Positions 16,701 to 35,351 of a DNA stretch of 48,547 nt are shown piece after piece. The notes beneath the pieces are model-generated. The model searched no databases. It was given only the letters and a program-made list of their open reading frames with translations, and was not told the DNA's origin. The DNA lies in assembly GCA_030145195.1 (NCBI GenBank), contig JAQYVY010000029.1, positions 1-48,547 on the forward strand, in the 5' to 3' direction. The DNA is from Desulfuromonadales bacterium (GTDB lineage Bacteria > Desulfobacterota > Desulfuromonadia > Desulfuromonadales > BM103). Position 1 is the stretch's first letter; each line of letters opens with the position of its first letter. A program made the translations under genes and the position numbers.

Positions 16701-16995
16701 CAACAAAGAGCTCGACATGACCATGGCCATTCACCCCTTGGGCACAGTCGATAAAATTGTCTCTCATATTCCGATCGCGGGCTGGTTATTGACCGGCGAG
16801 GACAAGGCTTTTCTGACCGCGCATTTTTCCGTCAAGGGGCTGGCAGGGAATCCTTCCGTAAGCTCTGTACCGATCGACACGCTCTCAGATACAACCCTCG
16901 GCCTGCTCAAGCGAACGCTGGGATTGCCGTTCAAGCTGATTGAAGACCCGCAGATTCTCTGGGGTGGCGATGCAAGCGATAATGCTGGCGAATAA
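13720..16995 (+). CDS. AsmA-like (YhdP/TAM-type) envelope protein
   Basis: A 1091-residue protein with one N-terminal membrane helix (about residues 14-36) followed by a long beta-rich periplasmic body. The N-terminal pattern (FDLNDYRNQVQTQLSSHLSLPVELGEL) is typical of AsmA proteins. The C-terminal 200 residues (FPVLSKVFSLLNVSQLF, GMPFDRLHANFQLQNGIL, LGTVDKIVSHIPIAGWLLTG) match the DUF3971/AsmA_2 region of YhdP-like proteins. Such proteins are thought to bridge the envelope and move phospholipids to the outer membrane. Coupling to a histidine kinase by ATGA overlap is unusual. Confidence 0.85.
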   Translation: MTTKKASTNPRKRILILSVLAIVLAASTWIGFFLASFDLNDYRNQVQTQLSSHLSLPVELGELRYQFHNTNLALSLTGLHIGNAESILEIMVPEILVNLRWQGLLNRRFEFKKISLIHPKLNFRLQPHELSSTAIPRGTTPLLIDQALIYQTKIEELELIAGVLTLALPQKNGEKRFIEFADLDGSMEDVGLERTSQIFLKGHFRAPGQSQHSLWDLQGNMTPTLDPQAGFISDLNLNLTAKELELTALKALLAPQHDELSVAGQSWLQLHIEGSPAAAIEFQAELNSDNLAITPGHGYTQPVQMNQLLASGRLHLRGAPPRISDLQLKSDRSLLSGELHWSPAGQATGTTLFLTDSSLPLQQLKAWLPDQPEMSATIRNGLQDQGLLQIKTAQLGFTTAGATGQTGRWHLEQVQAELQDGAWRPSQGPLTEIKRLQLKLADNQWQIDCNDGRLGSTPFTLDGGIQIDAQGEPHVSLNFHGEISPPELFSDWQVTPPPFSLSGKVPFTGHIEGPTEQLKLDLLIKLSELNLSNNSSLEIKPDVDDKLVLQGSLSPKEFGIDHAALQWSLIKGHFSGTLPWGALDQSRLEALITIADLAALGKSSPPLSKLGLQGQAEVDIRQSGNPFETFPQLTITLREAAIRTGNSVADLSRINGRIQVSSSGLQANNLLVHLGQSPLTVQAKLKNFAEPRLELDVKAPSIRADDLIFHSDKAILRDISGHLELDRNQLTLDQVGVRLDGGTQATVSGAIGFNSPVAVNLDITSEFANISEVIGLWTDTSGSDNQERLQQSENPGSKPPRAKVVIKAEVSRGELYGMQFQNAKGTILPSRERLVIHPLDFSVGAGFCNAQVLTEFNGKGNTLLRISGHAEDVDALEVYRELLHQKNIIRGKLHGDFYIQGLVGSQYLPSSYGNFSIQVHDGVLHQFPVLSKVFSLLNVSQLFALRLPDMATEGMPFDRLHANFQLQNGILKSEDLLIQSEAMNQSYNGQINLINKELDMTMAIHPLGTVDKIVSHIPIAGWLLTGEDKAFLTAHFSVKGLAGNPSVSSVPIDTLSDTTLGLLKRTLGLPFKLIEDPQILWGGDASDNAGE

Positions 16996-17047: not shown

Positions 17048-17282
17048 AAGTGATAGGAATGTGCTTTTGTCGGGTTGACGTGATCTGGCCATAAAAAGCC
17101 CCTCCCATCGAATAAGCGCCCCCAAATTGACCGCTTCTCACTTCTACCTCAGGCCCAAATACATGTCAAACCCAAAACCCCGGGTAGGAAAACACTTCAA
17201 CCCACTAAAACCACTTGAATCTACCAGATTTTGCACAGACCGTCCCCAGCACATCCCCCCGAGTCAATGCAATATGACGTCC
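17048..17282 (-). repeat. Solo IS91-family terminal fragment (copy 1)
   Basis: A 235-bp segment matching 22452-22686 with no length difference. It covers the last five codons of the transposase (reading DVILH-stop on the minus strand) and the non-coding end of the element, which ends in TTCCTATCACTT on the minus strand. No further transposase is present: similarity stops abruptly at 17282, where quinone oxidoreductase codons begin. It is therefore a leftover of one-ended insertion or of a deletion that removed the rest of the element. Confidence 0.85.
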
Positions 17283-18178
17283 AGGTGGTCGCCACCTCGA
17301 TCAACCGCCCTGACCTGGTCCAACGGGCAGGCAACTATCCGGCCCCGAAGGGAGACTTTGAGATTCTCGGGCTCGAAGTTTCGGGGACCATTGCCGAGAC
17401 CGGCCCGGAAGTTACGGGCTGGAGTGTCGGCGATCGAGTAATCTCCCTGATTGGCGGCGGTGGTTACGCCAAATACGCGGTGGCCTATGCCAGTCACCTG
17501 ATGCATATCCCTGAGAGCGTGAGCTTTGAGGAAGCCGCTTGCATCTGCGAGTCCTACATCACGGCGTTCCTTAACGTCTTTATGATCGGCGACTTCCAGG
17601 ATGGCCAGACCGCTATCCTGCACGGCGGGGGTGGCGGCGTCAACACTGCGGCCATTCAACTCAGCAAGGCACTGACTCCAAACAGCAAGCTGATTGTCAC
17701 CGCCCACCCCTCCAAAATGGACCGGGTCCGCGACCTCGGCGCCGATCTGGTAATCAACTATCTTGAAAACCCCGACTTCACCGAGACCGTCAAGGAATTC
17801 ACCAACAAGAAAGGGGTCGATCTGGTTCTCGACCATGTTGGCGCCAAGTACCTCGGCCCTAACATGAAGTCCCTCGCCTACAAGGGCAAGCTGGTAAGTA
17901 TCGGAGTAATCAGCGGCATCAAGGCCGAGTTGAATCTGGCCCTGATGATGGTCAAGCGCCAGCAGATCATCGGCTCGGTGCTGCGCTCTCGCCCCGTTCC
18001 GGAGAAAGCCGAGATTGTCGCCGAATTCACCCGACGCGCCCTGCCAAAGTTTGCTGACCGTACCATCGTGCCAATTATCGAAAAGGCCTTCAGTATCGAT
18101 GAAGTGGTCGCCGCTCACGGCATGATGGAAGAGGACTCGCATTTTGGCAAGATTGTATTGAAGATTGCCGACGCCTAA
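17267..18178 (+). CDS. 5'-truncated NADPH:quinone oxidoreductase-like gene
   Basis: Zinc-independent MDR-family quinone oxidoreductase (PIG3/QOR type). Matches begin at VQVVATSINRPDLVQRAGNYPAP, which in intact relatives is about residue 28, and continue through the nucleotide-binding HGGGGGVNTAAIQL (AXXGXXG-like) to a normal C-terminus. The first 25-30 residues, the first beta strands of the catalytic domain, are missing because the IS fragment replaces them. An in-frame ATG (17267) and a TTG (17231) lie inside the IS end, so an N-terminally altered 303-residue protein could still be made. Probably impaired or non-functional; no promoter or ribosome site of its own is visible. Confidence 0.75.
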   Translation: MQYDVQVVATSINRPDLVQRAGNYPAPKGDFEILGLEVSGTIAETGPEVTGWSVGDRVISLIGGGGYAKYAVAYASHLMHIPESVSFEEAACICESYITAFLNVFMIGDFQDGQTAILHGGGGGVNTAAIQLSKALTPNSKLIVTAHPSKMDRVRDLGADLVINYLENPDFTETVKEFTNKKGVDLVLDHVGAKYLGPNMKSLAYKGKLVSIGVISGIKAELNLALMMVKRQQIIGSVLRSRPVPEKAEIVAEFTRRALPKFADRTIVPIIEKAFSIDEVVAAHGMMEEDSHFGKIVLKIADA

Positions 18179-18335: not shown

Positions 18336-18442
18336 ACAAATCAATCGTGTTTTACCGAACACAATTCTCCGATAATTTACGTATAAAACATCACCTTACG
18401 TACTACACCGCTTATCAACCCTATCATTCTCAAGGAGTCAAA

Positions 18443-21214
18443 ATGAAAAGCCCAAAACTGTTCTGGCTGACATTGTTAGCAGCCACCCTGACAATCCAAC
18501 CTGCTTTTGCAATTATTGTTGGCGACCCACCGCTGACTGTCTCCGATGGTGGCACTCTCCCCGTTGACGAAAACTACAATGTTTTCGGTAACGATGGTAT
18601 CACGGCACTCGGAGATAACAACACAATCAACATCTCGACAAGCGGAAGCATCGCGTCAAACCAAGATGCCATCAGCTCAGACGGTGAGGGCCAGACCATT
18701 AACAACGCGGGGACTATCTCCGGCTCTACAGGCATTAACTTCTGCTACGATGAATTCTTCACTGTCGGCAACGACACCGTGATTAGTTCCGGTACAATCA
18801 CTGGAACCGACGGCGTCGCCATCAAACTCGGCTACGGTAATGACACCCTGACGCTGGAAGAAGGCTCCATCGTCAACGGCGACATCAAGATGAGCGAAGG
18901 AGACGATGTTGTCACCAATAATGGCACCGTTAACGGTTACATTTACCTTGGCCCCGGCAACGACGTTCTCACGTCCAGCGGCAACATCCATGATTACATT
19001 TACCTTGGAGACGGGGATGACACCTTTACCTTCAACGGTGAAACCCTCAGCGCTTATGTTTATGGTGGAGGCGGAGATGACACGTTTAATTTGACTGACA
19101 CCACTGTTGAGAACTGCATCAACACCAAGAGTGGGAACGACACCGTTAACATCTATGGCAACGTGTTGCTGGAAGCTTCATTCGTATTCAAGGACGGAGA
19201 TGACGAAGTAAACATCACAGAGGGAAGCACTCTGACTCTTGGAGACGACATGCGGCTGGGTCAAGGCAACGACACGCTTATCATAGGAAAAGACGCCACC
19301 TTGAAGCACGACCTCACCGAAGAGGTCTCCATGGCTTACGGCGAAGACAATGTTTATATTTACGGCACGCTTGATGGCTATCTTGGCCTTGGCCCTGATG
19401 TTGACACCATAACCCTATACGATGGCGCCGTGGTCAAGAACGGCTACCTCTGCGGTGGCTATGATGAAGGCGACCTCGTCATTCTCGATGGCGGCGGCGT
19501 GTATGAAAGCTACTTCGACGGGTTCAGCGAGCTCAAAAAAACCGGCGACGGGACCTGGGAACTCAACAATGAGGACGTCGGCACCTTTGACGACGTGACG
19601 ATCACCGCCGGCACCCTGGCGATTAACGGCGGCATCACGATTGGCTCGCCATCCACCTTCATTATTGAAGAGGCCGGCACGCTGACCGGCGACGCCAACA
19701 TCTACAATGGCCCGGTTCACAACTACGGCATCGTTGCACCCGGCAGCTCAATAGGCACCATCACTGTTACTGGCGACTACACCCAGGAAACCAGCGGCCA
19801 GCTTGTCACTGAAATTGGTGATGGAACCAGCGACCTGCTCGACGTCACCGGCGAAGCTAACATAAGCGGTGGTCTCGACGTACAAATCGCCGGTGAACTC
19901 TCTGACGGCGAAACCCACACCTTCCTGGCCACAGGTAGCGGCCTCTACGGCGAGTTCGCCACGATCACAGGAAGCGCTTTCTACGATTTCGACGTCATCT
20001 ATGATGACTTCAATGCGTCTCTTAATGTCACCGAGTTGACTTACGCTGAAGTTGGACTTAGTGGAGACCAAGTGGCCCTGATCGAGGCGCTGAAAGAACA
20101 GGCCGCAAACGGTAACCCTGACGCACAAGAGGCTCTTTTCGCCATCTTGAACCTTGGCACGACAGGAGAGGCCACAAGTACCATGGGCTCACTGACTCCC
20201 GAACAGTATGCCAGTTCGGTTGACATCGGAATGGTCGGCTACAACCTCTACCGCAACACGGTCACAGGCCGCATGGGCAACCTGCACCTGACCCGGAGTA
20301 CACACGAACTGCAATACGCAAGCAACACCATGACCGCGAACGGCCCTGCCGTTTCACGCCTACCTGCCTTTGACCGCCGCGGCGAAGGTTGGAACGGCTG
20401 GGTTCGCTTCCTCGGTATGACTGGCGAGCAGGACAACGATGGCGCTCTTCAGGGCTACGACTACGACACCCGCGGCTTCTCGCTCGGCTTTGACAACAAG
20501 CTCAACGACAACCTCGCCATCGGCGTGGGCGTGGGCGTCTCGGGCAGCGAAGTTGACTTTGACAACGCCGGCCAGGAGACCGACGTCGACACTCGCCACA
20601 TCGGCCTCTACAGCACTTACTCAACGGACACCTTCTATATCGACACTGCAGTTTTCTATGCCGACAATGATTATGATTCCACCCGTGCCATTCCAGTAGC
20701 GGGACTCACGGCGGAGGGCAATACCGATGGTTATGAAGTTGGTCTTTTCATTGGTGTCGGATACGACATAGTAGATAATGAGACCATGTACTTCATCCCC
20801 ACAGTCTCTCTGAACTGGGCGCAGGCTGATATCGATGGCTTCACCGAAACCGGTGCAGGTGGACTCAACCTTACCGTGAATGATTATGATGCAGATTCAC
20901 TGGTCACTTCACTCGGCTTCCGCTGGGGCGGCAAGATGACCGCTGGCGAAACCCGTTTCGAACCGGAATTACGCCTGGCTTGGGCTCACGAATTTGGGAA
21001 TACCGACCGTGACGTAAAAGCCAGTTTCAGCGGCACGCCCGGCACCACCTTCACCATGGATGGAGTTGAGCCTGAAGAAGACAGCGCCATGGTCGGGCTG
21101 GGCGCCAACTTCTACATGACTGACACATTTACTTTTTATGTCGATTATGACGGTGAATTCCGTAGTGACTACGAAGGGCATGCCCTCAGTGGTGGTATCC
21201 GCTACGGCTTCTAA
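18443..21214 (+). CDS. Autotransporter with RTX-like repeats in the passenger
   Basis: A 923-residue type Va secreted protein. A signal peptide (KLFWLTLLAATLTIQPAFA) is followed by about 300 residues of repeats containing G-G/N-D-T-L and GDGDDTF-type motifs, resembling calcium-binding RTX or haemolysin nonapeptides but arranged as longer IYLGPGNDVL and SGNIHDYIYLGDGDDTF units. Then a passenger-associated repeat (KKTGDGTWELNN) and a C-terminal autotransporter beta-barrel (about residues 640-923) ending in GIRYGF with terminal Phe. The start at 18443 has AAGGAG six bases upstream; upstream in-frame codons lack a ribosome site. Likely an adhesin or surface-layer-like protein; substrate unknown. 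Confidence 0.88.
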   Translation: MKSPKLFWLTLLAATLTIQPAFAIIVGDPPLTVSDGGTLPVDENYNVFGNDGITALGDNNTINISTSGSIASNQDAISSDGEGQTINNAGTISGSTGINFCYDEFFTVGNDTVISSGTITGTDGVAIKLGYGNDTLTLEEGSIVNGDIKMSEGDDVVTNNGTVNGYIYLGPGNDVLTSSGNIHDYIYLGDGDDTFTFNGETLSAYVYGGGGDDTFNLTDTTVENCINTKSGNDTVNIYGNVLLEASFVFKDGDDEVNITEGSTLTLGDDMRLGQGNDTLIIGKDATLKHDLTEEVSMAYGEDNVYIYGTLDGYLGLGPDVDTITLYDGAVVKNGYLCGGYDEGDLVILDGGGVYESYFDGFSELKKTGDGTWELNNEDVGTFDDVTITAGTLAINGGITIGSPSTFIIEEAGTLTGDANIYNGPVHNYGIVAPGSSIGTITVTGDYTQETSGQLVTEIGDGTSDLLDVTGEANISGGLDVQIAGELSDGETHTFLATGSGLYGEFATITGSAFYDFDVIYDDFNASLNVTELTYAEVGLSGDQVALIEALKEQAANGNPDAQEALFAILNLGTTGEATSTMGSLTPEQYASSVDIGMVGYNLYRNTVTGRMGNLHLTRSTHELQYASNTMTANGPAVSRLPAFDRRGEGWNGWVRFLGMTGEQDNDGALQGYDYDTRGFSLGFDNKLNDNLAIGVGVGVSGSEVDFDNAGQETDVDTRHIGLYSTYSTDTFYIDTAVFYADNDYDSTRAIPVAGLTAEGNTDGYEVGLFIGVGYDIVDNETMYFIPTVSLNWAQADIDGFTETGAGGLNLTVNDYDADSLVTSLGFRWGGKMTAGETRFEPELRLAWAHEFGNTDRDVKASFSGTPGTTFTMDGVEPEEDSAMVGLGANFYMTDTFTFYVDYDGEFRSDYEGHALSGGIRYGF

Positions 21215-21341: not shown

Positions 21342-22334
21342 ATGCGCATAAAGATCTGCCTTGCCATCATACTCACAGTCACGCTACTGGCCGGTTGTAC
21401 TCGACCACAGCTTTCTGCCGACCTCCCCCCCCTACCGACTCATCCCGACCTCACTTGGCAGGAGGCTGTAAGCGTCAACACATCGCATTACGCCATCACG
21501 ACCAACACCGACCAGGCGGCGACCATAGGATCACTGATGGAGGCGGTCTACACTACGGCGGATACAATTCTGGGGCCGACACGAGAGCACGATAAAAAGC
21601 TGACCATCTATGCCTACGCGTCTCGCTCGGATTACGAACAACGGGTTAAAAAACATGGCTTGCCAGGCAGGATGACCACCGGCTTCTACACCCCTGCCGA
21701 CCCGGCAGGCATCCACCTGCCCATAGTGGCAACTCGCGGAGTCCACCCGTACTTCACCTTGGTCCACGAAGGGCTACACCAATATGTACACGAAATCCTG
21801 GGCTACCGTCTTGAACACAACGGAACAGAGTCCCCGGCAAAGCTCTCACCGGCACCGCTATGGCTCAACGAAGGTCTGGCGCTTTACTTTGAAGCTGCCT
21901 TGAGTGACGCGACCCATTTGCACCCTGGGCGCATCCACCCGGCCCGACTGGCACATCTGCAACAACTGCTACAGCGAGGCAAAGCTCCCTCGGTAGCAGA
22001 AGTCATCAACAAGAGCTACGGCGAGCCCTTCACCAACGCAAACTACTCGGTGGCTTGGGGGCTGGTGCATGCCATGCGCGAAAACCAGGCGGCAGGACCA
22101 GACTGGGAACAATTCTGGCGAATCTGGCAAAGGACTATACAGGAGCAAGCAGAGGTCACACGCCAAGAGCTTTACAAGCTGGAGCCTCTGCTCCTACAAC
22201 AGGAGTGGGCGAAGCTTCTGGCTCAACAATCCACCCGAATATTTCAAGATCAGGTCTTAATGAGCGGAAAACGTTGGGAGGAATGGGAAACAATGTGGCA
22301 AGCCTACATACTGAGCCTGCAACCGACACCGTAA
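21342..22334 (+). CDS. Putative zinc metallopeptidase lipoprotein
   Basis: Signal peptide with lipobox LLAGC (Cys19) predicts an outer-membrane or periplasmic lipoprotein of 330 residues. A HEGLH motif (142-146) fits HExxH, and a downstream WLNEGLALYFE (Glu177) supplies the third ligand at gluzincin spacing, as in peptidase MA-like/DUF1570 proteins. All predicted zinc ligands are intact. It directly follows the autotransporter but beyond a strong terminator, so it is probably transcribed separately. The substrate is unknown; proteolysis of surface proteins is only a guess. Confidence 0.75.
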   Translation: MRIKICLAIILTVTLLAGCTRPQLSADLPPLPTHPDLTWQEAVSVNTSHYAITTNTDQAATIGSLMEAVYTTADTILGPTREHDKKLTIYAYASRSDYEQRVKKHGLPGRMTTGFYTPADPAGIHLPIVATRGVHPYFTLVHEGLHQYVHEILGYRLEHNGTESPAKLSPAPLWLNEGLALYFEAALSDATHLHPGRIHPARLAHLQQLLQRGKAPSVAEVINKSYGEPFTNANYSVAWGLVHAMRENQAAGPDWEQFWRIWQRTIQEQAEVTRQELYKLEPLLLQQEWAKLLAQQSTRIFQDQVLMSGKRWEEWETMWQAYILSLQPTP

Positions 22335-22451: not shown

Positions 22452-22686
22452 AAGTGATAGGAATTTGCTTTTGACGCCTTGACGTGATCTGGCCATAAAA
22501 AGCCCCTCCCATCGAACATGCGGCCCCAAATTGACCGCTTCTCACTTCTACCTCAGGCTCAAAAACATGTCAAACCCAAAACCCCGGGCAGGAAAATACT
22601 TCAACCTACTAAAACCACTTGAATCTACCAGATTTTGCACAGACCGTCCCCAGCACATCCCCCCGAGTCAATGCAATGTGACGTCC
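22452..22686 (-). repeat. IS91-family oriIS-side end (copy 2)
   Basis: The end belonging to the full element. It aligns without gaps to copy 1 (17048-17282) and closely to copy 3 (25157-25390 region). The outer boundary AAGTGATAGGAA is shared by all three, while flanks beyond it (CTTAGTT, GGCCGTA, GTGAATCG) are unrelated, which fixes the end of the element. Confidence 0.85.
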
Positions 22687-24035
22687 GGATCATGACTTCG
22701 ACCCCAGCCATCGTCAAATTCTTCACAGACAATTGTTTCAGGGACTTCTGTTGCTGGTGGAGGTAGACCCTTGGGGATTCTTTCCTGCCATAGACCAAGG
22801 TGATCAAGGATGCGGCGGATCAGCAGACGTTCATCAATGAAGCTGATGATTTTCATCTCTGCACCGCACTTTGGGCATTCCAGAGGATCGACTTCCCAGA
22901 CCTTCTTGATGCACTCACGCCAGCTCTTCGATGGGATCTTTCTGGTTTTCGGTTCGGTTATGTTGAGGGAATCTGCAGCTATGGGAATTGATTCTTCATC
23001 GTTTTCCTGCCTTTTCCTGCGGTCCCCTCTGGAACGGTTTGAATACCAACCGTAATAGCGCACAAGTTGAAACGATTTATCCGGGATATGCTGGGTGATC
23101 GTCGCGATGAACTCATCGGCCTCGAAGAGTTCGAAGTTCTTTCTGTTTCTGCCGTGACTCATCCCGGAACGGTAGACGACAGTGCCTGAGGCTTCTATGT
23201 ATTGAATTTTCTCCAACGAAAAGGGATTGCGAATAATGTACTGAGCTAAGGCTTCCCTGCCATGTTCATCTTTCCTGTCGATCTTGACGCCGTTGTGGAT
23301 ATTGAACCCGGAAACATACCGCCACTTCATCAACATGCGAATAAAGTCATCGTCAACCTTACCCTCTTTCTTGAGCATCTTCAAAACAGCGGCGCGAAAC
23401 AACTCTTGCAACGGCTTGAGCTTGATCTCCGGCATGACATAAAAGCTGCCGTTCTCCATAAACAGACCGTCAGCGACCAGCAGATGCAGGTGGGGATGCC
23501 AGCGGCCATAATCGCCAAAAGTCTGAATGGCGGTGACGGTGCCAAGTTTGCCTGCTCTTGTCTTGATGGCGGTTTTGAAGAAGGTCATCAGGCTACGGTT
23601 GGCACAATGGCAGAGTTTGGAAAGCAGCTTTCGGTCATACTTGAAATAGAGTCGAAGGATTTTGGGCAGGGTGAATACGTACTGGCGGTGCGGGATGGAA
23701 GAGAGAATATTGCTGCTCAGCAGATCGCCGAACTGGATAACCTTCTTGGCGTGGCAGCTCGGACAGAACCAGCGCCCCTTGCAGCTGAATGAGAGCAGGT
23801 ACTCGTGACAGCAATCCGGGCAGCGCACCCTAGCGAAACCTTCTCGCAAATCACCGCACTTTAGATAATCGCGAACCACATCATCGACAACCGCGCGCCT
23901 GAAACCGTACTTCTTTAAGAACTTATGCTCGTAATCCCGCTCGAATATCTCGTAATGCGTATCGAGCAGTTTCCACAACGGCGACTGCTTCGGCTGTCGC
24001 GGGTGGTAAACGGATGCACCCCTCCCCGACAGCAT
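22668..24035 (-). CDS. IS91-family rolling-circle transposase
   Basis: HUH-type (Y2-like) transposase. The N-terminal zinc-finger-like region (VRCPDCCHEYLLSFSCKGRWFCPSCHAKK) is followed by the HUH motif HPHLHLLV, the ALAQYIIRNPFS catalytic tyrosine segment, and a C-terminal CPKCGAEM zinc ribbon. The start at 24035 (MLSGRGASVY) has AAGGGG upstream and gives about 455 residues; the open frame runs to 24128, but the added residues look unlike the family. It appears intact. Confidence 0.88.
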   Translation of the reverse strand: MLSGRGASVYHPRQPKQSPLWKLLDTHYEIFERDYEHKFLKKYGFRRAVVDDVVRDYLKCGDLREGFARVRCPDCCHEYLLSFSCKGRWFCPSCHAKKVIQFGDLLSSNILSSIPHRQYVFTLPKILRLYFKYDRKLLSKLCHCANRSLMTFFKTAIKTRAGKLGTVTAIQTFGDYGRWHPHLHLLVADGLFMENGSFYVMPEIKLKPLQELFRAAVLKMLKKEGKVDDDFIRMLMKWRYVSGFNIHNGVKIDRKDEHGREALAQYIIRNPFSLEKIQYIEASGTVVYRSGMSHGRNRKNFELFEADEFIATITQHIPDKSFQLVRYYGWYSNRSRGDRRKRQENDEESIPIAADSLNITEPKTRKIPSKSWRECIKKVWEVDPLECPKCGAEMKIISFIDERLLIRRILDHLGLWQERIPKGLPPPATEVPETIVCEEFDDGWGRSHDPDVTLH

Positions 24036-24224
24036 TTCCCCTTCAAAACAAAACATTGACCGAGACCACAATTGGCCACGAGCCGGGGACAGGCCCAGAG
24101 AGAAACCGGGACAGCCATCCCACATCAAAAGAGCAAACAGGGAAAGTGTAGAAGAAGTTAGCGAAATTGACAGCTAAGCTTTTGCGGTCGGAGCAAGACA
24201 ACTATCTGTAACTGGGGGGAGTCG

Positions 24225-24321
24225 CTATCTGAACCATTGATGTGACAGGAGGGATAAACGTTAGGATGCTCGCACCCCAACATGGACCGCAGCAATGCCA
24301 CCGGTCAGGTCGTGGATTTTC
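24225..24321 (-). pseudogene. Foreign ubiE 3'-end fragment
   Basis: About 97 bp matching the 3' end and downstream flank of ubiE at 28582-28677 with roughly 11 differences. It encodes IHDLTGGIAAVHVGVRAS-stop. Within 18 codons, seven changes are synonymous and one alters the protein (T to V). It is not a decaying local duplicate but a piece of a selected ubiE from a related genome, probably carried in with the IS91 element whose transposase 5' side it abuts. Confidence 0.85.
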
Positions 24322-24382
24322 CACGGCTCATCCTGCGTGATTGGGACGCAGATCCAGCCCCTACCAATCTAGATAAAACGAA

Positions 24383-25051
24383 TCAAAAATTAAAGAGGAG
24401 AGATAGAGATTTTGCATCGATCCCGTCTTCATTCTCAACCCCATGATAACGAGTCCATTCCAACCGGGCCTGCAGATTCTCCAAAATTGTCACTTGAGCT
24501 CCAATACCATAGACAACGTCCACTCCATCGTCATCAAGGGTTGATGATTGTCCAATATACGCAGAATTGCTGGATGCGGTTATTTCTAGGTTAAATTCAT
24601 GTTCCCAATATAGAATGCCCGCGCGTGCGATCAGATCGAGCCGCGTGTATACCGGAAGAGCCCCGACCAGAGAAAGAGATGCCGCTCGGTAGCTTGAATC
24701 GATCGTTCCTGTCAATGAGTCTGCACCCGCGATCGAGCTAAAGCGTCCGGACACTTCGCCTAAATCGATGAACTGGAGCTCCGCGGAACCAAAGCGGTGA
24801 AAGCGGAATCCAGCCAATAGAGCGTACACGGCATCATCGTCAACCTGGGACCCGGAGGAGGAAGTGACCTGAATCCCTTTTTTTTGAAGCGCCTTAGAAA
24901 CCAATGCCGACCGGTCGTGGCCGACGACCTCTACCTCACTGATGCCTGCGCTGGCACCGAAATACCAACGGCTCCGTTCTTCATCAGGCTCGGCGGACAA
25001 ACAGACGCCGGGAATTAGCAGTAAAAACAGCAGGTTCACTATTCGAGTCAT
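24383..25051 (-). CDS. Outer-membrane beta-barrel protein
   Basis: 222 residues with a signal peptide (IVNLLFLLLIPGVCLSA) and an OmpA/OmpW-like barrel: alternating amphipathic strands (WYFGASAGISEV, YALLAGFRFHRFGSAELQFIDLG, YGIGAQVTILENLQARLEWTRY) and a C-terminal aromatic residue (SLLFNF). A GGGGGAGG ribosome site precedes the ATG. It sits between the IS91 element with its ubiE fragment and a second IS end, so it may be passenger DNA. The specific role is unknown. Confidence 0.8.
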   Translation of the reverse strand: MTRIVNLLFLLLIPGVCLSAEPDEERSRWYFGASAGISEVEVVGHDRSALVSKALQKKGIQVTSSSGSQVDDDAVYALLAGFRFHRFGSAELQFIDLGEVSGRFSSIAGADSLTGTIDSSYRAASLSLVGALPVYTRLDLIARAGILYWEHEFNLEITASSNSAYIGQSSTLDDDGVDVVYGIGAQVTILENLQARLEWTRYHGVENEDGIDAKSLSLLFNF

Positions 25052-25156
25052 TTCGGCCTCCCCCTTTGCCTTCAGCTTACACGGAAGACATCATCACGGC
25101 GACCCCGAGGCCCATTCAATGGAACCGCCACCCTCTGGCAGGTAGATAGTGAATCG

Positions 25157-25372
25157 AAGTGATAGGAATTTGCTTTTGACGCCTTGACGTGATCTGGCCA
25201 TAAAAAGCCCGTCCCATCGAATAAGCGGCCCCAAATTGACCGCTTCTCACTTCTACCTCAGGCTCAAAAACATGTCAAACCCAAAACCCCGGGTAGGAAA
25301 ACACTTCAACCCCTTAAAATCACAAAAATCTCACCAACTTTGCACAGAGCGACCCCTGCACGTTCCGCCGAG
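25157..25372 (-). repeat. IS91-family oriIS-side end (copy 3)
   Basis: Same orientation and outer boundary as the end of the full element; nearly identical over the outer 150 bp and more diverged toward the transposase stop. It continues into a transposase remnant, marking a second, decayed IS copy. Confidence 0.85.
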
Positions 25373-25505
25373 TCAAAGCAATGTGTCGTTCTGGTCACTG
25401 CTTCGGCCCCAGCCGTCGTCAAATTCTTCACAAACAATTGTTACAGGAACTTCTGTTGCAGGTGGAGGTAGACCTTTGGGGAAGATCTCCTGCCATAAGC
25501 CGAGA
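25373..25505 (-). pseudogene. IS91 transposase C-terminal remnant
   Basis: The minus strand reads LGLWQEIFPKGLPPPATEVP followed by VTIVCEEFDDGWGRSSDQND-TLL-stop, aligning with the last ~45 residues of the intact transposase (about 80% identical). Similarity ends near 25505, so over 90% of the gene is missing. Confidence 0.88.
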
Positions 25506-25536
25506 GAAGCGTTTTGTTCACCACTACCAAAAGTAG

Positions 25537-25746
25537 GCACCTTCAGGCGAGATCGACAGCCTGGTCCAAAGCGACGGTGAAGAGATCACGGTCCAGCTTA
25601 CAGCCGGCCAGGTGAGCCTGCTCCAGTTCGCCGCAGAAGACCTCAGCGATCAGCTTGATTACCTCCGCGTCGCTGGTAAAGTGTTAGAAAGTGTCAATTT
25701 TGCGAGCCGTGAGATTGTTCTGTCAGGGTTCAAAGGTTGGCGATAA
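25537..25746 (+). pseudogene. C-terminal remnant of an unknown gene
   Basis: After a stop at 25534 the frame stays open for about 69 codons to TAA at 25746, reading GEIDSLVQSDGEEITVQLTA and ending NFASREIVLSGFKGWR. No start codon with a ribosome site is visible. The coding-like composition and its position directly after the IS remnant suggest the 3' end of a gene cut by the insertion. The family was not recognised. Confidence 0.45.
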
Positions 25747-25826
25747 AAAGCCACGGTCCTTCGGCCTGAATGATGTTCTGCAGGACGGTGGTTTTCTACT
25801 ACGGCGCTGATGCTTGGGAGGCAACC

Positions 25827-26264
25827 ATGGGGAGTAAAACAGGTTTGGTCATGATCGTCGCACTGCTTCTGACCCTTTCAGGCTGTCTCGCCTCGCAGCA
25901 CGCTGCGGATGTGCAAAAGGGCCTTGAAGGCGACAGAATAACCGTCGGCACGGTCCAGCGTGAAATCCGTCAGGGGATGTCCAGTGCCGAAGTCGCTGAA
26001 GTGCTCGGTTCGCCGAATATTGTTTCGACGGATGAGCAGGGCCGTGAGGTCTGGATCTATGATCGTGTCTCCACCGATTCGGTCTATTCGAAGAGTGATG
26101 GCGGAATTCTGGCACTGATCCTTGGGTCCTCGGGGTTAGCTGGTGGCGCGACCTCGTATAGGACGGGAGCAGAGTCCACCAGCCAGCGGACCTTGACGAT
26201 CATCATCAAATACGACGAGGAGGGCAGGGTTGATGGCTTCTCCTACCACTCGTCCCGTTTCTAG
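25827..26264 (+). CDS. BamE/SmpA-OmlA-domain lipoprotein
   Basis: 145 residues with lipobox LTLSGC. The mature part has the SmpA/OmlA pattern: VGTVQREIRQGMSSAEVAEVLG then SPNIVSTDEQGREVWIYDR. Such domains occur in BamE and in small outer-membrane lipoproteins. The ATG at 25827 follows GGGAGG at 25816 with good spacing; an upstream in-frame start at 25770 would put extra residues before the signal peptide. It heads a tightly packed lipoprotein cluster of five genes. Confidence 0.8.
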   Translation: MGSKTGLVMIVALLLTLSGCLASQHAADVQKGLEGDRITVGTVQREIRQGMSSAEVAEVLGSPNIVSTDEQGREVWIYDRVSTDSVYSKSDGGILALILGSSGLAGGATSYRTGAESTSQRTLTIIIKYDEEGRVDGFSYHSSRF

Positions 26265-26742
26265 AGCGGTGAGAGTGCGGCTCCAAGTTCTCTTCTTCTG
26301 CGGGGTGTGCTGTTGGCTTTTTGGGGGGTGCCAACCGCCAGTCGACCCTGCTGCGTCGCTGGTGCCCGCAAGCTTAGCGACGCGGCAGATGCAGACGCGT
26401 CTGTTTACCGCTGAGGACGAAGTCAAGGTCATGAAGGCCTGCGCGGCTTTATTGCAAGACTATGGATATCATATCGACATCTCAGAAACCCGGTTGGGGC
26501 TTTTGGTCGGTTTCAAAGAACGTGGCGGAATCAAGAATCCACTACAGATTCTCCGGGCGAGCGTTGTCACCCGGCCGACGGCGAAAAGCGGGGCAATCGA
26601 GGTCCGATTGGCTTTTCAAAGGCTGGTGTTAACGCAGCAACTTGAGGTCATCTATCGGGAGGCGATATACGATCCCAAGGTGTTTCGGCAGTTCTTTGCG
26701 CGGCTTTCCAGGGCTCTTACCATGACGGCAGAGCAATTATGA
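26233..26742 (+). CDS. Small lipoprotein, type A (first copy)
   Basis: 169 residues, lipobox LFGGC. After the signal peptide comes the signature LATRQMQTRLFTAEDEVKVM, then LLQDYGYHIDISETRLGLLV and a C-terminal VFRQFFARLSRALTMTAEQL. It is clearly homologous to the gene at 27176. The ATG at 26233 has AGGAGG nine bases before it and overlaps the upstream gene by 32 bp; a GTG at 26269 would give a more compact signal peptide but has no ribosome site. Family name not recognised; predicted outer-membrane lipoprotein. ATGA overlap with the next gene. Confidence 0.75.
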   Translation: MASPTTRPVSRAVRVRLQVLFFCGVCCWLFGGCQPPVDPAASLVPASLATRQMQTRLFTAEDEVKVMKACAALLQDYGYHIDISETRLGLLVGFKERGGIKNPLQILRASVVTRPTAKSGAIEVRLAFQRLVLTQQLEVIYREAIYDPKVFRQFFARLSRALTMTAEQL

Positions 26743-27170
26743 GGGCTACTCTCCATATCCTAGCTGTTTTTCTTGTGTCTTCAGCCCTGCTGTTTACCGG
26801 AGCTTGTGCTCCGACGCAGCAGCGACTCCTCGATTCAGAAGTGGGTCAGTTAGAAGTTCGCAGTATCCAGACCAGAGTTTTCGCGATCAATGACAGGGAG
26901 AAAGTGTTGCGAACCGTCATGGTCACGCTTCAGGATTTAGGGTTTATGATTGACAGCGCTGATGTTGGCCTGGGAACGGTGACGGCAACGAAGTCCGATC
27001 AAAAGCCGCTCCGTTTCACGGTCTCGGTACGGCCACGAGGTCAAACCCAGAGTCTGGTGAGAGTCAACGCCCAATATGACCTGGAACCGATCTTGGATCC
27101 TGTTTTGTACCAGAGGTTTTTCGCCAGGTTCTCCAAAGCAATGTTTTTGGAGGCACAACAGGTGGAGTAG
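26739..27170 (+). CDS. Small lipoprotein, type B (first copy)
   Basis: 143 residues, lipobox LFTGAC. Core signature LEVRSIQTRVFAINDREKVL, LQDLGFMIDSADVGLGTVTATKSD, C-terminus LYQRFFARFSKAMFLEAQQ. It shares the QTR-x-F ... LQDLGF-x-ID ... G skeleton with type A but lacks type A's longer middle part. Start overlaps the previous stop (ATGA). Homologous to the gene at 27775. Confidence 0.78.
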   Translation: MRATLHILAVFLVSSALLFTGACAPTQQRLLDSEVGQLEVRSIQTRVFAINDREKVLRTVMVTLQDLGFMIDSADVGLGTVTATKSDQKPLRFTVSVRPRGQTQSLVRVNAQYDLEPILDPVLYQRFFARFSKAMFLEAQQVE

Positions 27171-27175
27171 GGAAA

Positions 27176-27778
27176 ATGTTGGGTTTGACGTCACGGCAAG
27201 AGGGTCCATCAAGGCGCGTCTTGCGGTTGAGCAGAGGTTGTCTGATTGCTGGCCTGGTCGCCTTGGTCGCTTGCAGTTATCCCCAGGTGCCGCAAGGCGC
27301 ATTACAGTTAACACCTGAATCCCTGGCAAAACGCCAGCGTCAGACAAGACTCTTCGCCACGAATGACGAAGCTCTTGTCCTTGATGCCAGCACGAGCGTT
27401 CTTCAAGACCTCGGTTTCCATATCGACGAAAGTGAAAAGCCGCTCGGATTGGTGGTCGGCTCCAAACAGCGGAGTGCCAAGGACCCTGCAGAGATCACCG
27501 TGGCAGTCGTCTTATTCATTCTGGCGGCGGCGGCCGGTTCCTCAGAGGCAGACAAGTTGCTGATCTGGGGTGAAGAGCAGAAGATGCGGACTTGTATCGT
27601 TGCCAGGCGATCCAACCAGGCCGGTGGTGGGATCGCCGTCCGGGTCACATTCCAGCGTGAGGTCTTCTCGAACAAAGGCGGGGTGTGGAGAAGGGAGGAA
27701 CTGGACGAGCCGGAAATCTTCCAAGAGTTTTTTGCCAAACTGGCAAAGGCCCTATTCTTAGAGGCTCAGCAAATATGA
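27176..27778 (+). CDS. Small lipoprotein, type A (second copy)
   Basis: 200 residues. Signature LAKRQRQTRLFATNDEALVL, then VLQDLGFHIDESEKPLGLVV, matching the gene at 26233. The lipobox is LVALVAC. It carries an insertion absent from the first A copy, with a hydrophobic stretch (ITVAVVLFILAAAAG) that could lie in or against a membrane. C-terminus [20 protein letters not shown]. It begins five bases after the type B stop with GGAG upstream. Confidence 0.75.
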   Translation: MLGLTSRQEGPSRRVLRLSRGCLIAGLVALVACSYPQVPQGALQLTPESLAKRQRQTRLFATNDEALVLDASTSVLQDLGFHIDESEKPLGLVVGSKQRSAKDPAEITVAVVLFILAAAAGSSEADKLLIWGEEQKMRTCIVARRSNQAGGGIAVRVTFQREVFSNKGGVWRREELDEPEIFQEFFAKLAKALFLEAQQI

Positions 27779-28227
27779 AGCGTGCATTCCGGGCCATATC
27801 CCTGGTTGTGACTGTGCTATTGGTGTTGTCTCTGTCTGCCTGTTGGCCGCCTCCGCTCGTGGGCGTTCTTGGTGAAACCGGAAATACGCTGACAATTCGC
27901 AGTATTCAAACCCGTGAATATGATTCGAAAAATCCCGTCGTAGTCATGCGCGCGGTGATCTCGACGCTGCAGGATCTGGATTTTGTCATCGACCAAGCAG
28001 ACTCCCGTTTGGGGCTTGTCACCGCAACGAAGGTTCACCAATATCGCTTGCGCATTACGGTTCTGGTCGAGGCGTTAACAAAAGGCCGAGTGCAGGTTCG
28101 GGCCAGCTGCCATATGGGTGCTTACCGATTATCGGACGCAGGGCCGGTCTCAGAACCAGAACCCTACCAGGAGTTCTTTGCCTCCTTAGGCAAAAACCTA
28201 TCTTTCGAGCAGAACTCGGGGAGCTGA
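27775..28227 (+). CDS. Small lipoprotein, type B (second copy)
   Basis: 150 residues, lipobox LSLSAC. Signature [42 protein letters not shown], as in the gene at 26739. The start overlaps the previous stop (ATGA), exactly as in the first A-B pair. The C-terminus after EFFASLGKN departs from its paralogue and its stop lies where radA-like sequence begins, so the last residues may have been altered at a recombination joint. Confidence 0.78.
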
Positions 28228-28470
28228 AGCGGTTAGCTAAGGTCACGGTTACTGCCGAGGACCAGCAACGGTATGGCCTTGCCGAGTTTGACCGGGTGCT
28301 GGGCGGCGGGGTTGTGACCGGTTCGTTCACTCTGATCGGTGGTGACCCGGGGATCGGCAAGTCAACGCTGCTGTTGCAGGCTGCGGAATGCTGGGCTGGG
28401 GCCGGTGCTCTATGTGACGGCAGTTGAATCACGAAAGTCTGCACAACTTCTTGACGCATCAAGACAATTC
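28224..28470 (+). pseudogene. radA fragment
   Basis: The frame from 28224 reads [20 protein letters not shown] followed by [20 protein letters not shown], the Walker A region of the DNA-repair ATPase RadA. It then shifts frame near 28395, after [10 protein letters not shown], and continues as [13 protein letters not shown] in a second frame before similarity ends. The N-terminal zinc finger and the entire Lon-like C-terminal part are absent. It is dead. Confidence 0.88.
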
Positions 28471-28616
28471 GAAAAGGCTCTCATCACCAATAAGATGACC
28501 ACGAGTTTTTCAAATTACCTATGCACATCAATTCGCTGCACATCTTTTTCGCGCTGAACTGCGGTTTCTAGGATAATTGACAGTCTGAACCATTGGTGTA
28601 ACAGGAGGGATAAACG

Positions 28617-29330
28617 TTAGGATGCTCGCGTTCCAACATGAACGGCAGCAATGCCGCCGGTCAAATCGTGAATTTTGACATCGGCAAAACCGGCCGCTTC
28701 CATCATCGCCTTGAAAGTCTGGCGATCAGGGAATTCCATTACGGAATCGGGCAGATATTGATAGGCGCTACGCTGCGAAAGTAAACCACCCAGCCAGGGC
28801 AGCATTTTCAGGAAGTAGAAGTAATAAACCGCTCGAAAGACCCGGTTGAGTGGAGTGGCAAACTCCAGAATGACCGCTCGACCGCCAGGTTTAAGCACCC
28901 GCGCCATCTCCTCCAGGCCTTTCTGCCGATCAACCACATTGCGAATGCCGAAAGCAATCGTTACCCCATCAAAGATGCCATCGGGATGCGGGATCGCCTC
29001 ACAGGGGTTATTCACCAACACGATTCGATCACGATACGGCGAAGCCTCAACCTTCTCGTGTCCGAGCACCAGCATCCCCTGAGTAAAGTCTGAACCGACA
29101 ATCCGCACCGAAGCTGGCGTCTGCTTGGCAACTTCTAGAGCCACATCACCAGTGCCAGTGGCGATGTCGAGCACCATGCCGCCCTCGGGAATCTGGAGTT
29201 GTTTAACGGCAAAACGCCGCCAACGGCGATCAATGCCCAGCGACAGCAGTCGGTTGAGCAGATCGTAACGTGGCGCGATCTTGTCGAACATGTCGCGAAT
29301 GCCGCGACCTTTTTCTGTAAGTTTGGTCAT
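28617..29330 (-). CDS. ubiE: Demethylmenaquinone/ubiquinone methyltransferase
   Basis: SAM-dependent C-methyltransferase of quinone biosynthesis (MenG/UbiE), 237 residues. SAM motif I is VLDIATGTGDVALEV; the family signatures YDLLNRLLSLGIDRRWRR and GIRNVVDRQKGLEEMARVLKPGG are present. In an anaerobic respirer it most likely methylates demethylmenaquinone. Its 3' end is echoed at 24225-24321 by a divergent fragment. Confidence 0.95.
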   Translation of the reverse strand: MTKLTEKGRGIRDMFDKIAPRYDLLNRLLSLGIDRRWRRFAVKQLQIPEGGMVLDIATGTGDVALEVAKQTPASVRIVGSDFTQGMLVLGHEKVEASPYRDRIVLVNNPCEAIPHPDGIFDGVTIAFGIRNVVDRQKGLEEMARVLKPGGRAVILEFATPLNRVFRAVYYFYFLKMLPWLGGLLSQRSAYQYLPDSVMEFPDRQTFKAMMEAAGFADVKIHDLTGGIAAVHVGTRAS

Positions 29331-29515
29331 GATAAGATTCCCGCAAGAAAGGTGCGCAAATTATGTAACACATCGGAATCAGAGCTGTCAGTAAAAATTC
29401 TTAATCAGGAGGGTAATTTTGTTCTATGAGCCAAACTCAAAGGCACCCCTCAGCATAATCTACCGGGGCTACAAGCCTGGGACAAAAGCCTCCAGGAAAA
29501 GACACTCTCTCTTGC

Positions 29516-30577
29516 TCAGTTGATCCCGGCATACTCAAGAAAGGTCACCGGCGGCTGGTAAACTTTCTGACTTGAAAGCAGCGCGTGGATATCAGCTGGG
29601 CCGAAGTAGCGCGCTTCCAGAGCACGGCCTTTTTCCATCCAGAAGCCAAACTGCGGGACAAAGGTATTGTGCCGAATCGTATGATCGATGGTCAGTCCGG
29701 CCAACACAAAGACGTTGCGACCGCTGCCATCAAAACCGTCGGTAAGATATGAAGCAATGCGATGAAATTGTCGCCAGGTGTTGACGTTGCATAATTTTCT
29801 GTGCGGTCGGGGCGAGGCGACGATTTCAGGTAAGAAATCAAAGTTTGACACTTCCAGCATGTTTTTCGGTTCATGGCTGTCCCGGTCGATTCGTTTGCTA
29901 AAGCCAAAGGTATCAGGCGTCAAGCCTCTGCCAATAGGTTGCGGGGTTTCAGCCAATTCCGCAAAAAAATCGGGATGGGCTTTAATCAGCCCCGGATTGA
30001 CAGGGTAAATCTTACCGAGCGCCCCTTCCCCGCAGGTATCGCCACCAATAAGTTGCTCAAGTTTTATCCTGATTCTAACCGTTTCTCCCTGCGGCTTGCT
30101 GAAGAGGTATTTGTAAGGAATTTCAATTTTCATGACATCGCCGTGGCGGAAAACTTTAATCAATTGCGTGGCACGTTGATAAACCAGCAGATACTCATTC
30201 AGCATGCGGCGTAGCATGCCACAACACGGTACCACCTGATCATGAACGCGACGGATATAGCCGACACCGTCTTTCTCCTTCGCCCCAATATGGCTGCCAC
30301 CCACAATAACAAGATCGTTACCGTGATGAGCAACCGTTGCCAAACGGGTTGGGTCAAGCAAAGCACCGACCCGGCCCAAATTGAAAGAAGGACAATTATA
30401 CACATAGCCAAACAACGCCTTCTTAATCGACTGGCTTTCATCAGAGCATTGCCAGATGGCTGGCAAGGTCCCCGAGAAACCGGCATTGTCCGTCAAACTA
30501 CGCATACGGCCAAAGAGGTTCATCAGATCCATCGGTGGGAGATCAAGAAGTTTTTCGTCAGGTGGGGCAATCGGCAT
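29516..30577 (-). CDS. LCIB/C-like (beta-type) carbonic anhydrase family protein
   Basis: 353 residues, soluble. The N-terminal half has the spacing of the limiting-CO2-inducible LCIB_C_CA family as I recall it: CSDE (Cys44, Asp46), a GGSHIG block (His96) and CCGM (Cys118/119), giving Cys-His-Cys zinc ligands with a possible Asp dyad. Between them VGALLDPTRLATVAHHGND aligns with the family's glycine-rich GLAG...H segment. The ATG at 30577 has GGAGG five bases upstream. The C-terminal half is not assigned. Function would be CO2/bicarbonate interconversion, but activity is unproven. Confidence 0.6.
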   Translation of the reverse strand: MPIAPPDEKLLDLPPMDLMNLFGRMRSLTDNAGFSGTLPAIWQCSDESQSIKKALFGYVYNCPSFNLGRVGALLDPTRLATVAHHGNDLVIVGGSHIGAKEKDGVGYIRRVHDQVVPCCGMLRRMLNEYLLVYQRATQLIKVFRHGDVMKIEIPYKYLFSKPQGETVRIRIKLEQLIGGDTCGEGALGKIYPVNPGLIKAHPDFFAELAETPQPIGRGLTPDTFGFSKRIDRDSHEPKNMLEVSNFDFLPEIVASPRPHRKLCNVNTWRQFHRIASYLTDGFDGSGRNVFVLAGLTIDHTIRHNTFVPQFGFWMEKGRALEARYFGPADIHALLSSQKVYQPPVTFLEYAGIN

Positions 30578-30904
30578 GTCGTCCTCCAAAACGTTGCGAA
30601 TCGGGGGGATTCATGAAATCATCCAGACAACATATAACGCTGTTATAACAATCATACAACAACTATTCTTGGGTCATGACTCGCTTAGCGATAGTTAAGC
30701 CATACCAAGCAACGGTTATAACCCAAACATAATTTATCTCTGTCCCACTTTTACATTCTACGGATCAAGCCACCCGAACCAATGCTATAGAAGGTTGGCA
30801 TAATCCGACCTCAATGGCTGCTGACTCCGGTTTAATCTAGACGTGAGCAAGCAAACAGGGTTATCTTTATAAAAATAAAAAAATCTAATAATTGCAAGGA
30901 TCTC
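30578..30904. other. Divergent intergenic region
   Basis: Holds the upstream regions of the LCIB-like gene (minus) and the diguanylate cyclase (plus). A perfect 10-bp palindrome TGTTATAACA (30641-30650) lies about 65 bases before the LCIB-like start and could be an operator. No confident promoter boxes and no gene. Confidence 0.4.
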
Positions 30905-31837
30905 ATGCCCATGGGCCACACCATTCTTATCATTGATGACACCAAGTCGGTCCGCCAGCAGATTCTCAGAACCCTGCGCAGCAGCAATCTGTTCAGCAAC
31001 TACTTTGAAGCAACCAATGGTATTGAAGGCTTCAAAACTCTACTCAATGAAAAGATCGACGTTGTGTTATGTGACGTTGAGATGCCGGGGATGGATGGCT
31101 TTAAGTTCTTGACCATGGTCAACTCTCGTAAAGAGTTGCACGACATCCCGGTTCTGCTGCTAACCAGCCATGAAGAGATGGCGACCAAGATTAAAGGTCT
31201 CGAACAGGGAGCCAGTGACTATGTGACCAAGCCGTTCAGTCCCGAGGAACTACTGGCCCGCGTCAAGGTTCAGCTCAAGATCAAAACTTTGCAGGACAAT
31301 CTCAAGCAGAGCAACCAGCTCCTGCAAAAGCTGTCACAAACCGACCCCCTGACCGAGTTGTACAACCGCCGGCACATGATGACGACCCTGGAATCGGAAT
31401 TTGACCGCAGTAACCGAATCAGCAGTCCGTTTGCCCTGATGATGATCGACCTCGACCATTTCAAACGGGTCAACGACACTTATGGCCACCAGCAAGGAGA
31501 TAAGGTACTGCAATCAATCTCATGGGAAATTCAAGAGCAGTTGCGCCCGTACGATTCGGCGGCTCGCTTCGGTGGCGAAGAGTTCGCCCTGCTTTTGCCC
31601 GAGACCACTCTTGGTGAAGCGGTCGTGGTTGCAGAACGATTGCGCCAGCGCATCAGCAACGTACAATTCACCGGTCCAATCTCTGGTCTAAAAATAACCG
31701 CCAGCTTTGGCCTTGCCGCAATTCCACACAAAAAGATCAACACGACCAAAGACCTGATCCGCCTCGCCGATGAAGCACTGTACGCGGCCAAGCACAACGG
31801 CCGAAATCGAGTCGAAAGCACCCCTACAGACCGCTAG
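30905..31837 (+). CDS. Response regulator diguanylate cyclase (PleD-like)
   Basis: 310 residues: receiver domain (acidic pocket D11-D12, phospho-acceptor Asp57 in LCDVEMPGMDG, TS motif and KPFSPEEL) joined by a coiled linker to a GGDEF domain. The active site is GGEEF (RFGGEEFALLLPE) and the inhibitory I-site RPYD sits five residues before it, so an active, product-inhibited c-di-GMP synthase is expected. AAGGA precedes the ATG. The stop codon TAG is the second to fourth base of the palindromic repeat that follows. No cognate kinase is adjacent. Confidence 0.95.
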   Translation: MPMGHTILIIDDTKSVRQQILRTLRSSNLFSNYFEATNGIEGFKTLLNEKIDVVLCDVEMPGMDGFKFLTMVNSRKELHDIPVLLLTSHEEMATKIKGLEQGASDYVTKPFSPEELLARVKVQLKIKTLQDNLKQSNQLLQKLSQTDPLTELYNRRHMMTTLESEFDRSNRISSPFALMMIDLDHFKRVNDTYGHQQGDKVLQSISWEIQEQLRPYDSAARFGGEEFALLLPETTLGEAVVVAERLRQRISNVQFTGPISGLKITASFGLAAIPHKKINTTKDLIRLADEALYAAKHNGRNRVESTPTDR

Positions 31838-32001
31838 CAGCCTGTCGGACTATCAGGGCTGAAGCGAAAATTTGAATGTTTGAGACCAGCTTTTAGCACA
31901 TTTGAGAGTCATAGCCGTAGCTATCGGTCGACAAGGAGCTGAGATATGTACCAAACAGGCGAATTTGCAGCCAGTTCATTGATAGTCCGACAGGTTGCTA
32001 G
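31834..32001. repeat. 168-bp palindromic element, copy 1
   Basis: Terminal inverted repeats of 22 bp (one mismatch) begin CTAGCAGCCTGTCGG and end CCGACAGGTTGCTAG. The inner halves are also roughly complementary, so the unit could fold into one long hairpin. A central ATAGC-CGTA-GCTAT hairpin is present. No reading frame inside. It begins at the last codons of the diguanylate cyclase gene and supplies its stop. Confidence 0.88.
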
Positions 32002-32052
32002 AGCAAGACCAATTGAGTTCGCACCGATTTAAAGCCTGACCCGCATGACAGC

Positions 32053-32466
32053 CTATGGGCCTTCTTCCGCCTTACAACGCTTAACCACATCTTTGAGCCA
32101 GGCGATCTCGTCCGGCGCAAACTGCTTGTTGTAATCTGTACCGATATTCATCGCCCAGTGAAGCTTCCCTGGAGTCATCTCCGCCAGCACATGGCCCGGC
32201 AACTGCAGACTAAAAAGTTCTTTCTCAGCCCAATCTTTGAGTCGCTGCTGCTGATCAAAAAAGACCAGATAATCGACACCATCAGCTTCGACAATCAATG
32301 GCAATTCGGCCTTCTCTTTATCACTGTTGTCATCAGGAAGAACCATCTCGTCGGTCGTGGGAACAAAGAAGATCGAATTGAGGAACAGGTCGTAAAAACC
32401 CGACTGTGCTTTTGGGTCGTCGGGTGCGGAGCGTAAGGCATCAAGCGCTTGATCAAGTTCTGTCAT
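32053..32466 (-). CDS. SseB N-terminal domain protein
   Basis: 137 residues resembling SseB-family proteins: an N-terminal helix (LDQALDALRSAPDDPKAQSGFYDLFLNSIFFVPT) followed by YLVFFDQQQRLKDWAE and a C-terminal ELAWLK-type helix. The family role is uncertain (enhanced serine sensitivity locus, general stress). No partner gene is adjacent. An AAAGG lies before the ATG. Confidence 0.75.
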   Translation of the reverse strand: MTELDQALDALRSAPDDPKAQSGFYDLFLNSIFFVPTTDEMVLPDDNSDKEKAELPLIVEADGVDYLVFFDQQQRLKDWAEKELFSLQLPGHVLAEMTPGKLHWAMNIGTDYNKQFAPDEIAWLKDVVKRCKAEEGP

Positions 32467-33078: not shown

Positions 33079-33436
33079 CTCTCTTCTGAATCTCCGAAGT
33101 TATTTCCAGACATCCCATCATAGAAATAGTGATTATGTTGATGTTGCCTTAGGAATAAGCCAGAGTGACAGGCTCAGAGCAGTTCGAACACACCCATACA
33201 ACCCATATCCTTAAAAGAATCAGCTCTATTAACAGATAACCTATCGTTTCTCGCCTACCTCACAGAGGGTTGACTCTCTCGGAAGAACCCTGTGATTGAA
33301 ACCTATTTAACTACTATCAGGATTCAATGCGAGGTCAAGTCTCTTGCCAAGATAAAAGGAGTCACCCTGTTTTTATTGATCACCATAAGTGCCCCGCATC
33401 GGCAGATGAAACGCCCCCCCCCTTATAAACCTGTCC
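33079..33436. other. Gap without a supported gene
   Basis: Upstream region of the small minus-strand gene. An imperfect hairpin TCACAG-a-GGGTT/AACCCTGTGA lies around 33260-33294. No gene, tRNA or promoter could be supported. Confidence 0.4.
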
Positions 33437-35345: not shown

Positions 35346-35351
35346 ATAAAA

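Follow-up and report, generated by a model that had tools for sequence, protein, structure and literature searches.

In a Desulfuromonadales genome, the 11.6-kb gap between a YhdP-like gene and ubiE was a mosaic of IS91-like ends, cargo genes, and diverged second copies of at least three core genes: ubiE, a PIG3 quinone oxidoreductase, and radA. We interpret the ubiE piece (ubiE'), with moderate confidence, as a non-functional remnant of the gene's end from a related, unsampled sister lineage, brought in with imported DNA. The window, meaning the whole 48,547-nucleotide stretch that we analysed, belongs to a draft genome of 3.40 Mb (G000; 3,401,430 bases) in 100 contigs with 1.79% contamination. 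Its relevant features, from left to right, were:

13543 to 16995, forward: YhdP-like gene, the convergent neighbor of ubiE in relatives (PF13116, E 6e-43)
17048 to 17282, no strand assigned: copy 1 of the IS91-like ori end, truncated to 235 bp, 94% identical to copy 2
17285 to 18178, forward: second copy of a PIG3-type quinone oxidoreductase gene (oxidoreductase'; TIGR02824, 343 bits); native copy at C89:11591-12487, 82%
18347 to 21214, forward: autotransporter gene of the insertion (PF03797, E 7e-66)
21342 to 22334, forward: DUF1570 protein gene of the insertion (PF07607, 26.5 bits, cut-off 22)
22452 to 24114, reverse: IS91-like element, copy 2, whose transposase appears intact (NF033538, 184.7 bits, cut-off 125; PF04986 and PF14319)
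24115 to 24227, no strand assigned: 113 bp between the IS end and ubiE'; a search of 135 other genomes of the order gave no hit at E 1e-4
24228 to 24320, reverse: ubiE-like 3' fragment (ubiE'), 82/93 to 28584-28676, sister to native ubiE (UFBoot 99)
24383 to 25051, reverse: OmpA-like beta-barrel protein gene (PF01389 and PF13505)
25157 to 25497, no strand assigned: copy 3 of the IS91-like ori end, truncated to 341 bp, 88% identical to copy 2
25574 to 25657, reverse: LarA-like gene fragment, 81% to the genome's own C92 copy over 59 nt (25593-25651) and 83% to G011 over 84 nt
28211 to 28430, forward: internal radA fragment (radA') with a short frameshifting deletion, 83% to the genome's own C92:13664-13892
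28417 to 28576, no strand assigned: dispersed repeat of ~156 bp whose end lies next to the flank of native ubiE; G010, G015, and G017 have copies at 84-87%
28584 to 28616, reverse: downstream flank of native ubiE, homologous to the ubiE' flank and to G018
28617 to 29330, reverse: intact native ubiE, 237 aa (PF01209, E 1e-67; NF001244 above its cut-off), the sole strong match in the genome

The ubiE' fragment aligned with the native ubiE tail without gaps and in the same orientation, with 11 mismatches, and identity outside the match fell to background at once (11/30 on the left, 5/30 on the right). A search of the genome with the fragment at E 0.001 returned only the fragment itself and the ubiE tail (E 1e-27). 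The fragment comprised 19 sense codons from the end of ubiE, the stop codon, and 33 nt of downstream sequence. Eight of the 19 codons differed from the native gene: seven changes were synonymous, and the eighth, T to V, involved two bases. A sequence-only reading had already recognized a match to the native ubiE 3' end 4.3 kb away, and this was borne out at 82 of 93 positions; its extent of 24225-24321 narrows to 24228-24320, and its tally of eight changes, seven synonymous and one T to V, was correct for 19 codons rather than 18. Just past the point where ubiE' breaks (24227), native ubiE and G018 have a common flank, ATTGACAG. Fragment ubiE' was therefore cut on that side, and because the break removes this common flank, the adjoining 113 bp are not a natural ubiE flank.

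We fetched the ubiE region for 15 of the 21 family relatives, and a YhdP-like gene lay convergent to ubiE on the same contig in 14 of these. The gap between the two genes measured 1-297 bp in 13 of the 15 and 2462 bp in G009, compared with 11.6 kb in the window; the G018 contig ended 4.4 kb past ubiE, with no YhdP-like gene in that interval. The G009 insertion (L118 12228-14689) carried a 409-aa ORF that appeared ATPase-like by eye. The DNA downstream of ubiE to the contig end in G018 (L103 3264-7701) held, again by eye, a gene resembling a TonB receptor and a remnant of an IS91 transposase, and the cargo at ubiE differed between these two genomes.

The left half of the window gap ran from an IS91-like ori end through the truncated quinone oxidoreductase, the autotransporter, the DUF1570 gene, the full IS91-like element, and the 113 bp to ubiE'. 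After ubiE' came the OmpA-like gene, a third ori end, the LarA-like fragment, small lipoprotein-like genes, the radA fragment, the repeat, and the ubiE flank. The OmpA-like protein had no match at E 1e-8 in the 276 other genomes of the class. Several of the lipoprotein-like genes (25770-28227, identified by eye), which formed a run between the LarA-like and radA fragments, resembled one another, and the run had a partial DNA match in G002 C96. A short repeat of about 31-38 bp (CTACC-AAAA-GTAGG, 25515-25552) also occurred on seven other contigs of the genome, and part of the ~156-bp repeat was found again on contig C66. On the other side of ubiE, genes conserved upstream of it in many relatives were absent from 29400-48547, and the first of them, encoding a 652-aa protein, lay at the edge of contig C31. 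This rearranged upstream DNA had suggested that ubiE as a whole was an import, an idea we dropped, as we could not link the placement of the conserved upstream gene on C31 to ubiE'. The same region held an inverted repeat of 22 nt (31834-31855 and 31980-32001; 95% complementary, 124 nt apart).

Each of the three second copies grouped as sister to the genome's own gene, with UFBoot values of 99 for ubiE', 95 for radA', and 96 (DNA) and 77 (protein) for oxidoreductase'. The trees included 9 relatives for ubiE, 13 for radA, and 19 for oxidoreductase. For the ubiE tree and the polarisation below, the 9 were drawn from the 15 fetched, leaving out G003, G004, G005, G014, G019, and G020, whose gene is one codon shorter, and the 33-nt flank was included for native ubiE, the fragment, G018, and G009 only. 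Two of the 21 family relatives (G010 and G017) had no oxidoreductase match.

Oxidoreductase' lacked its first 33 residues, which an N-terminus comparison showed to be replaced by the IS tail. Its DNA was 82% and its protein 92% identical to the native copy, with dS 1.10, dN 0.056, and a ratio of 0.05, and the native and island DNA branches were nearly equal (0.126 and 0.137). Because 297 codons remained open and dN/dS was 0.05, oxidoreductase' was probably a working gene under selection until recently. The native gene on C89 had conserved neighbors, one in 19/19 relatives' loci and the other in 16/19, and the island copy is therefore the stranger. Native radA lay on C92 with the LarA-like gene (named by PF09861) 4.9 kb away, head to head; the two genes have this head-to-head arrangement in some relatives as well, and of 10 short radA loci from relatives, 4 included a LarA-like gene. 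The radA fragment had dS 0.47 and dN 0.076. Silent divergence agreed between ubiE' (7/16 sites) and oxidoreductase' (123/213.5; P 0.30) and was lower in radA' (16/46) than in oxidoreductase' (P 0.005), a difference that may hint at multiple donors or dates. Divergence fell mainly at silent sites, as expected of xenologous remnants from a sister lineage, with seven synonymous and two non-synonymous changes in ubiE' and dS above dN in oxidoreductase' and radA'. As judged from these comparisons, a sister lineage appears well supported as the source of the left part of the insertion.

The silent changes in ubiE' required polarisation before they could be interpreted. Compared with the 9 relatives, silent changes in codons 2, 5, 7, and 15 looked derived in the native copy, those in codons 4 and 12 had no clear polarity, and the fragment looked derived only at codon 11 (silent) and at codon 16, in both bases behind T to V. 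Two changes in the downstream flank also looked derived in the native copy, readable against G018, or G018 and G009, only. Had the fragment been decaying at its present position ever since the split, changes would be expected at all sites, and changes belonging to ubiE' itself numbered 0/33 at noncoding and at most 2/41 at non-synonymous sites. Decay in place was rejected at neutral rates of at least 0.15 per site (joint P 2e-4 or less) and was not rejected at 0.06, which is how far the downstream flanks differ (P 0.07). With four of the seven silent changes derived in the native copy, the 7:1 ratio alone is no proof of two selected genes. The proposal that two selected ubiE genes had diverged in separate lineages thus gains from the sister grouping and from the oxidoreductase and radA second copies, while the ratio on which it was built is insufficient by itself; the synonymous bias does persist on the full alignment, confined to the 19 codons. 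Being so short, ubiE' alone would give weak support to a foreign source, and the case leans on the other loci.

The element at 22452-24114 encodes an IS91-type Y2 HUH transposase, with the motifs HPHLH at 211 and YYGWY at 358, and downstream of this gene it has an ori end that is distinct and conserved. The transposase ORF spanned 22668-24128, with Met candidates at 24125, 24056, and 24035. Ori tips like AAGTGATAGGAATTTGCTTTTG occurred at three window sites (17048, 22452, and 25157), where the left ends were constant and the right ends differed, and at 13 sites in other loci, 3 of them recognized by 21-22 bp matches only. These tips were scattered across the family, and 8 of the 13 outside sites matched over only about 86-147 bp, as if the ori end alone had been kept or moved. 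IS91 itself has a fixed target tetranucleotide, GAAC/CAAG, beside ori. We found no common tetranucleotide or target consensus before the 16 tips, which could be placed to within 1-2 bases, and not every relative of the element need follow this rule. Comparison of 25157-25497 with 22452-22792 and 17048-17282 revealed that the ori copies were mosaic: copies 2 and 3 agreed at 128/131 positions in the first part and copies 1 and 2 were nearly identical in the rest, a pattern that suggests exchange between copies. The overall identities had seemed to set copies 1 and 2 apart from copy 3 as two blocks of different origin, a division that the split by segment removed.

At the other end of the element, no match to IS relatives extended past 24114, which is the upper limit for the outer end of the IS. 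Many relatives' matches end there, and we considered 24114 as the exact tip; we rejected it because the stretch is partly REP-like and is also found without the IS. The REP-like sequence beside the IS end (GCCGGGGACAG...GAAACCGGGACAG, 24087-24118) has similar motifs, without an IS, in other family genomes.

We give about an even chance to DNA from a sister lineage having recombined in at the YhdP-ubiE spot, with ubiE' as the edge of the donor's ubiE and the IS91-like copies as breakpoints. What the data show is the anatomy of the gap, the grouping of the second copies with the native genes, and a low dN/dS in oxidoreductase'; the recombination route and the exact crossovers we infer. The donor would also have had cargo between YhdP and ubiE, and its DNA would have entered the cell and recombined at the same locus, with the donor's ubiE tail as the edge of the imported block. 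If the other crossover was not at ubiE, as we assume, the host ubiE would survive beside the remnant; the IS91-like copies could have served as homologous or illegitimate breakpoints. Fragment ubiE' sits in the place and orientation of a ubiE tail, in the one such gap in the genome, and import at the same locus explains both directly. Recombination at core genes flanking hotspots is, according to excerpts of PMC5635113, a proposed and supported route of import. Against the import stand the placement of ubiE' from just 93 nt and the support of 77 in the oxidoreductase' protein tree. Not all of the cargo is allelic, since radA' and oxidoreductase' derive from loci that are not near ubiE, and some of it must have reached the gap of the donor or the host by another way. 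The fuller account, a recurrent YhdP-ubiE spot with IS91 ori seams and core-gene pieces from one sister lineage, in which the ubiE tail marks an import that spared the host gene, is one we offer tentatively.

The route first suggested for ubiE' was capture by the IS: an IS91-like element beside a donor ubiE would have read through ter and carried at least 93 bp of the ubiE end along by one-ended rolling-circle transposition. Excerpts of PMC5714925 and PMC13393415 describe IS91-like rolling-circle elements that can miss ter and take neighboring DNA. The IS belongs to the IS91 family and its transposase looks intact, ubiE' lies on the ter side of the element, upstream of the transposase gene, the three window ori tips have the constant left and variable right ends described above, and downstream of ubiE in G018 lie two IS remnants from the ori side. 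Fragment ubiE' had also been said to abut the 5' side of the transposase; it is near, with the longest ORF starting at 24128, but 113 bp lie beyond the IS-shared limit at 24114, so the contiguity with the ter end expected of a captured piece is lacking. Moreover, the break at 24227 cuts a flank common to native ubiE and G018, no target consensus accompanies the ori tips, and a random landing in this gap and orientation would be expected in about 0.2% of cases (about 1/600; 11,621/3,401,430, halved). Searches of the family, the order, and the genome contigs turned up no donor carrying that IS beside ubiE, and downstream of its ubiE G018 offered ori-side remnants only. Capture is thus weakly supported, with the separation, the broken flank, and the recurrence of the same gap and orientation counting against it, and we regard it as doubtful.

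Other donor searches agreed in their outcome. Fragment ubiE' DNA found no donor in the 22 family genomes (own included), the closest match being the genome's own ubiE, and this says little about a donor because the genus is represented by this genome alone. No donor appeared for 24115-24400 in 136 order genomes (own included), for the OMP protein in 277 class genomes (own included), or for an exact 29-base pattern in viral contigs, and a ubiE protein scan of genome contigs yielded no donor among 21 loci, whose protein identity did not exceed 86%.

An old duplication of ubiE, oxidoreductase, and radA within the lineage, long kept by selection and recently cut down, would fit the grouping of each copy with the genome's own gene in a genus sampled by this genome alone. 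It asks, however, that three core genes were duplicated, kept, and then all truncated within one 11.6-kb stretch, and its simplest form, a ubiE copy decaying since the split, failed at neutral rates of at least 0.15, though not at 0.06; we consider it unlikely. An assembly chimera, in which reads of a co-occurring sister strain were joined at shared repeats, seems quite unlikely: the genome is a draft with the contig number and contamination given above, and exact common runs of 70, 69, and 43 bp in the IS ori copies could mislead short-read assembly, but both breaks of ubiE' fall in DNA without a second copy in the genome, and the full native ubiE is on the same contig. Site-specific integration at the ubiE 3' end, in which a 4.3-kb element with att sites at 24228 and 28584 would have rebuilt the end of the gene, is very improbable, for although direct 93-bp repeats flank 24321-28583 and share a 29-bp identical core over the stop codon, at 24245-24273 in the fragment, a Pfam scan of the six main ORFs in between found no integrase and the flank common with G018 stays on the native side, not the fragment side.

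Scars in core genes record DNA exchange between related bacteria, and the YhdP-ubiE gap offers a clean, small example. It also illustrates that silent-change ratios from a short fragment should be polarised and backed by independent loci before they are taken as a sign of foreign origin, and that a gene fragment beside an IS is not in itself evidence of carriage by the IS.

The event is of a known, ordinary kind, a trace of gene exchange between relatives. Some genomic islands duplicate a gene 3' end as their att site, and here too the inserted DNA is bounded by direct repeats of a gene 3' end; in the window, however, the six scanned ORFs hold no integrase and it is the intact gene that retains the flank found in G018. 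Transposition of IS91/ISCR elements past ter, as presented in excerpts of PMC5714925 and PMC13393415, shares with the window an IS91-family transposase, several truncated ori ends, and foreign DNA on the ter side, and the difference is that here ubiE' does not adjoin the IS end and is found at the native ubiE locus. As in the hotspot import outlined in excerpts of PMC5635113, variable cargo lies between two conserved genes with foreign core-gene alleles at the edge, whereas here the donor core-gene end forms a duplicate scar and the host allele was not replaced.
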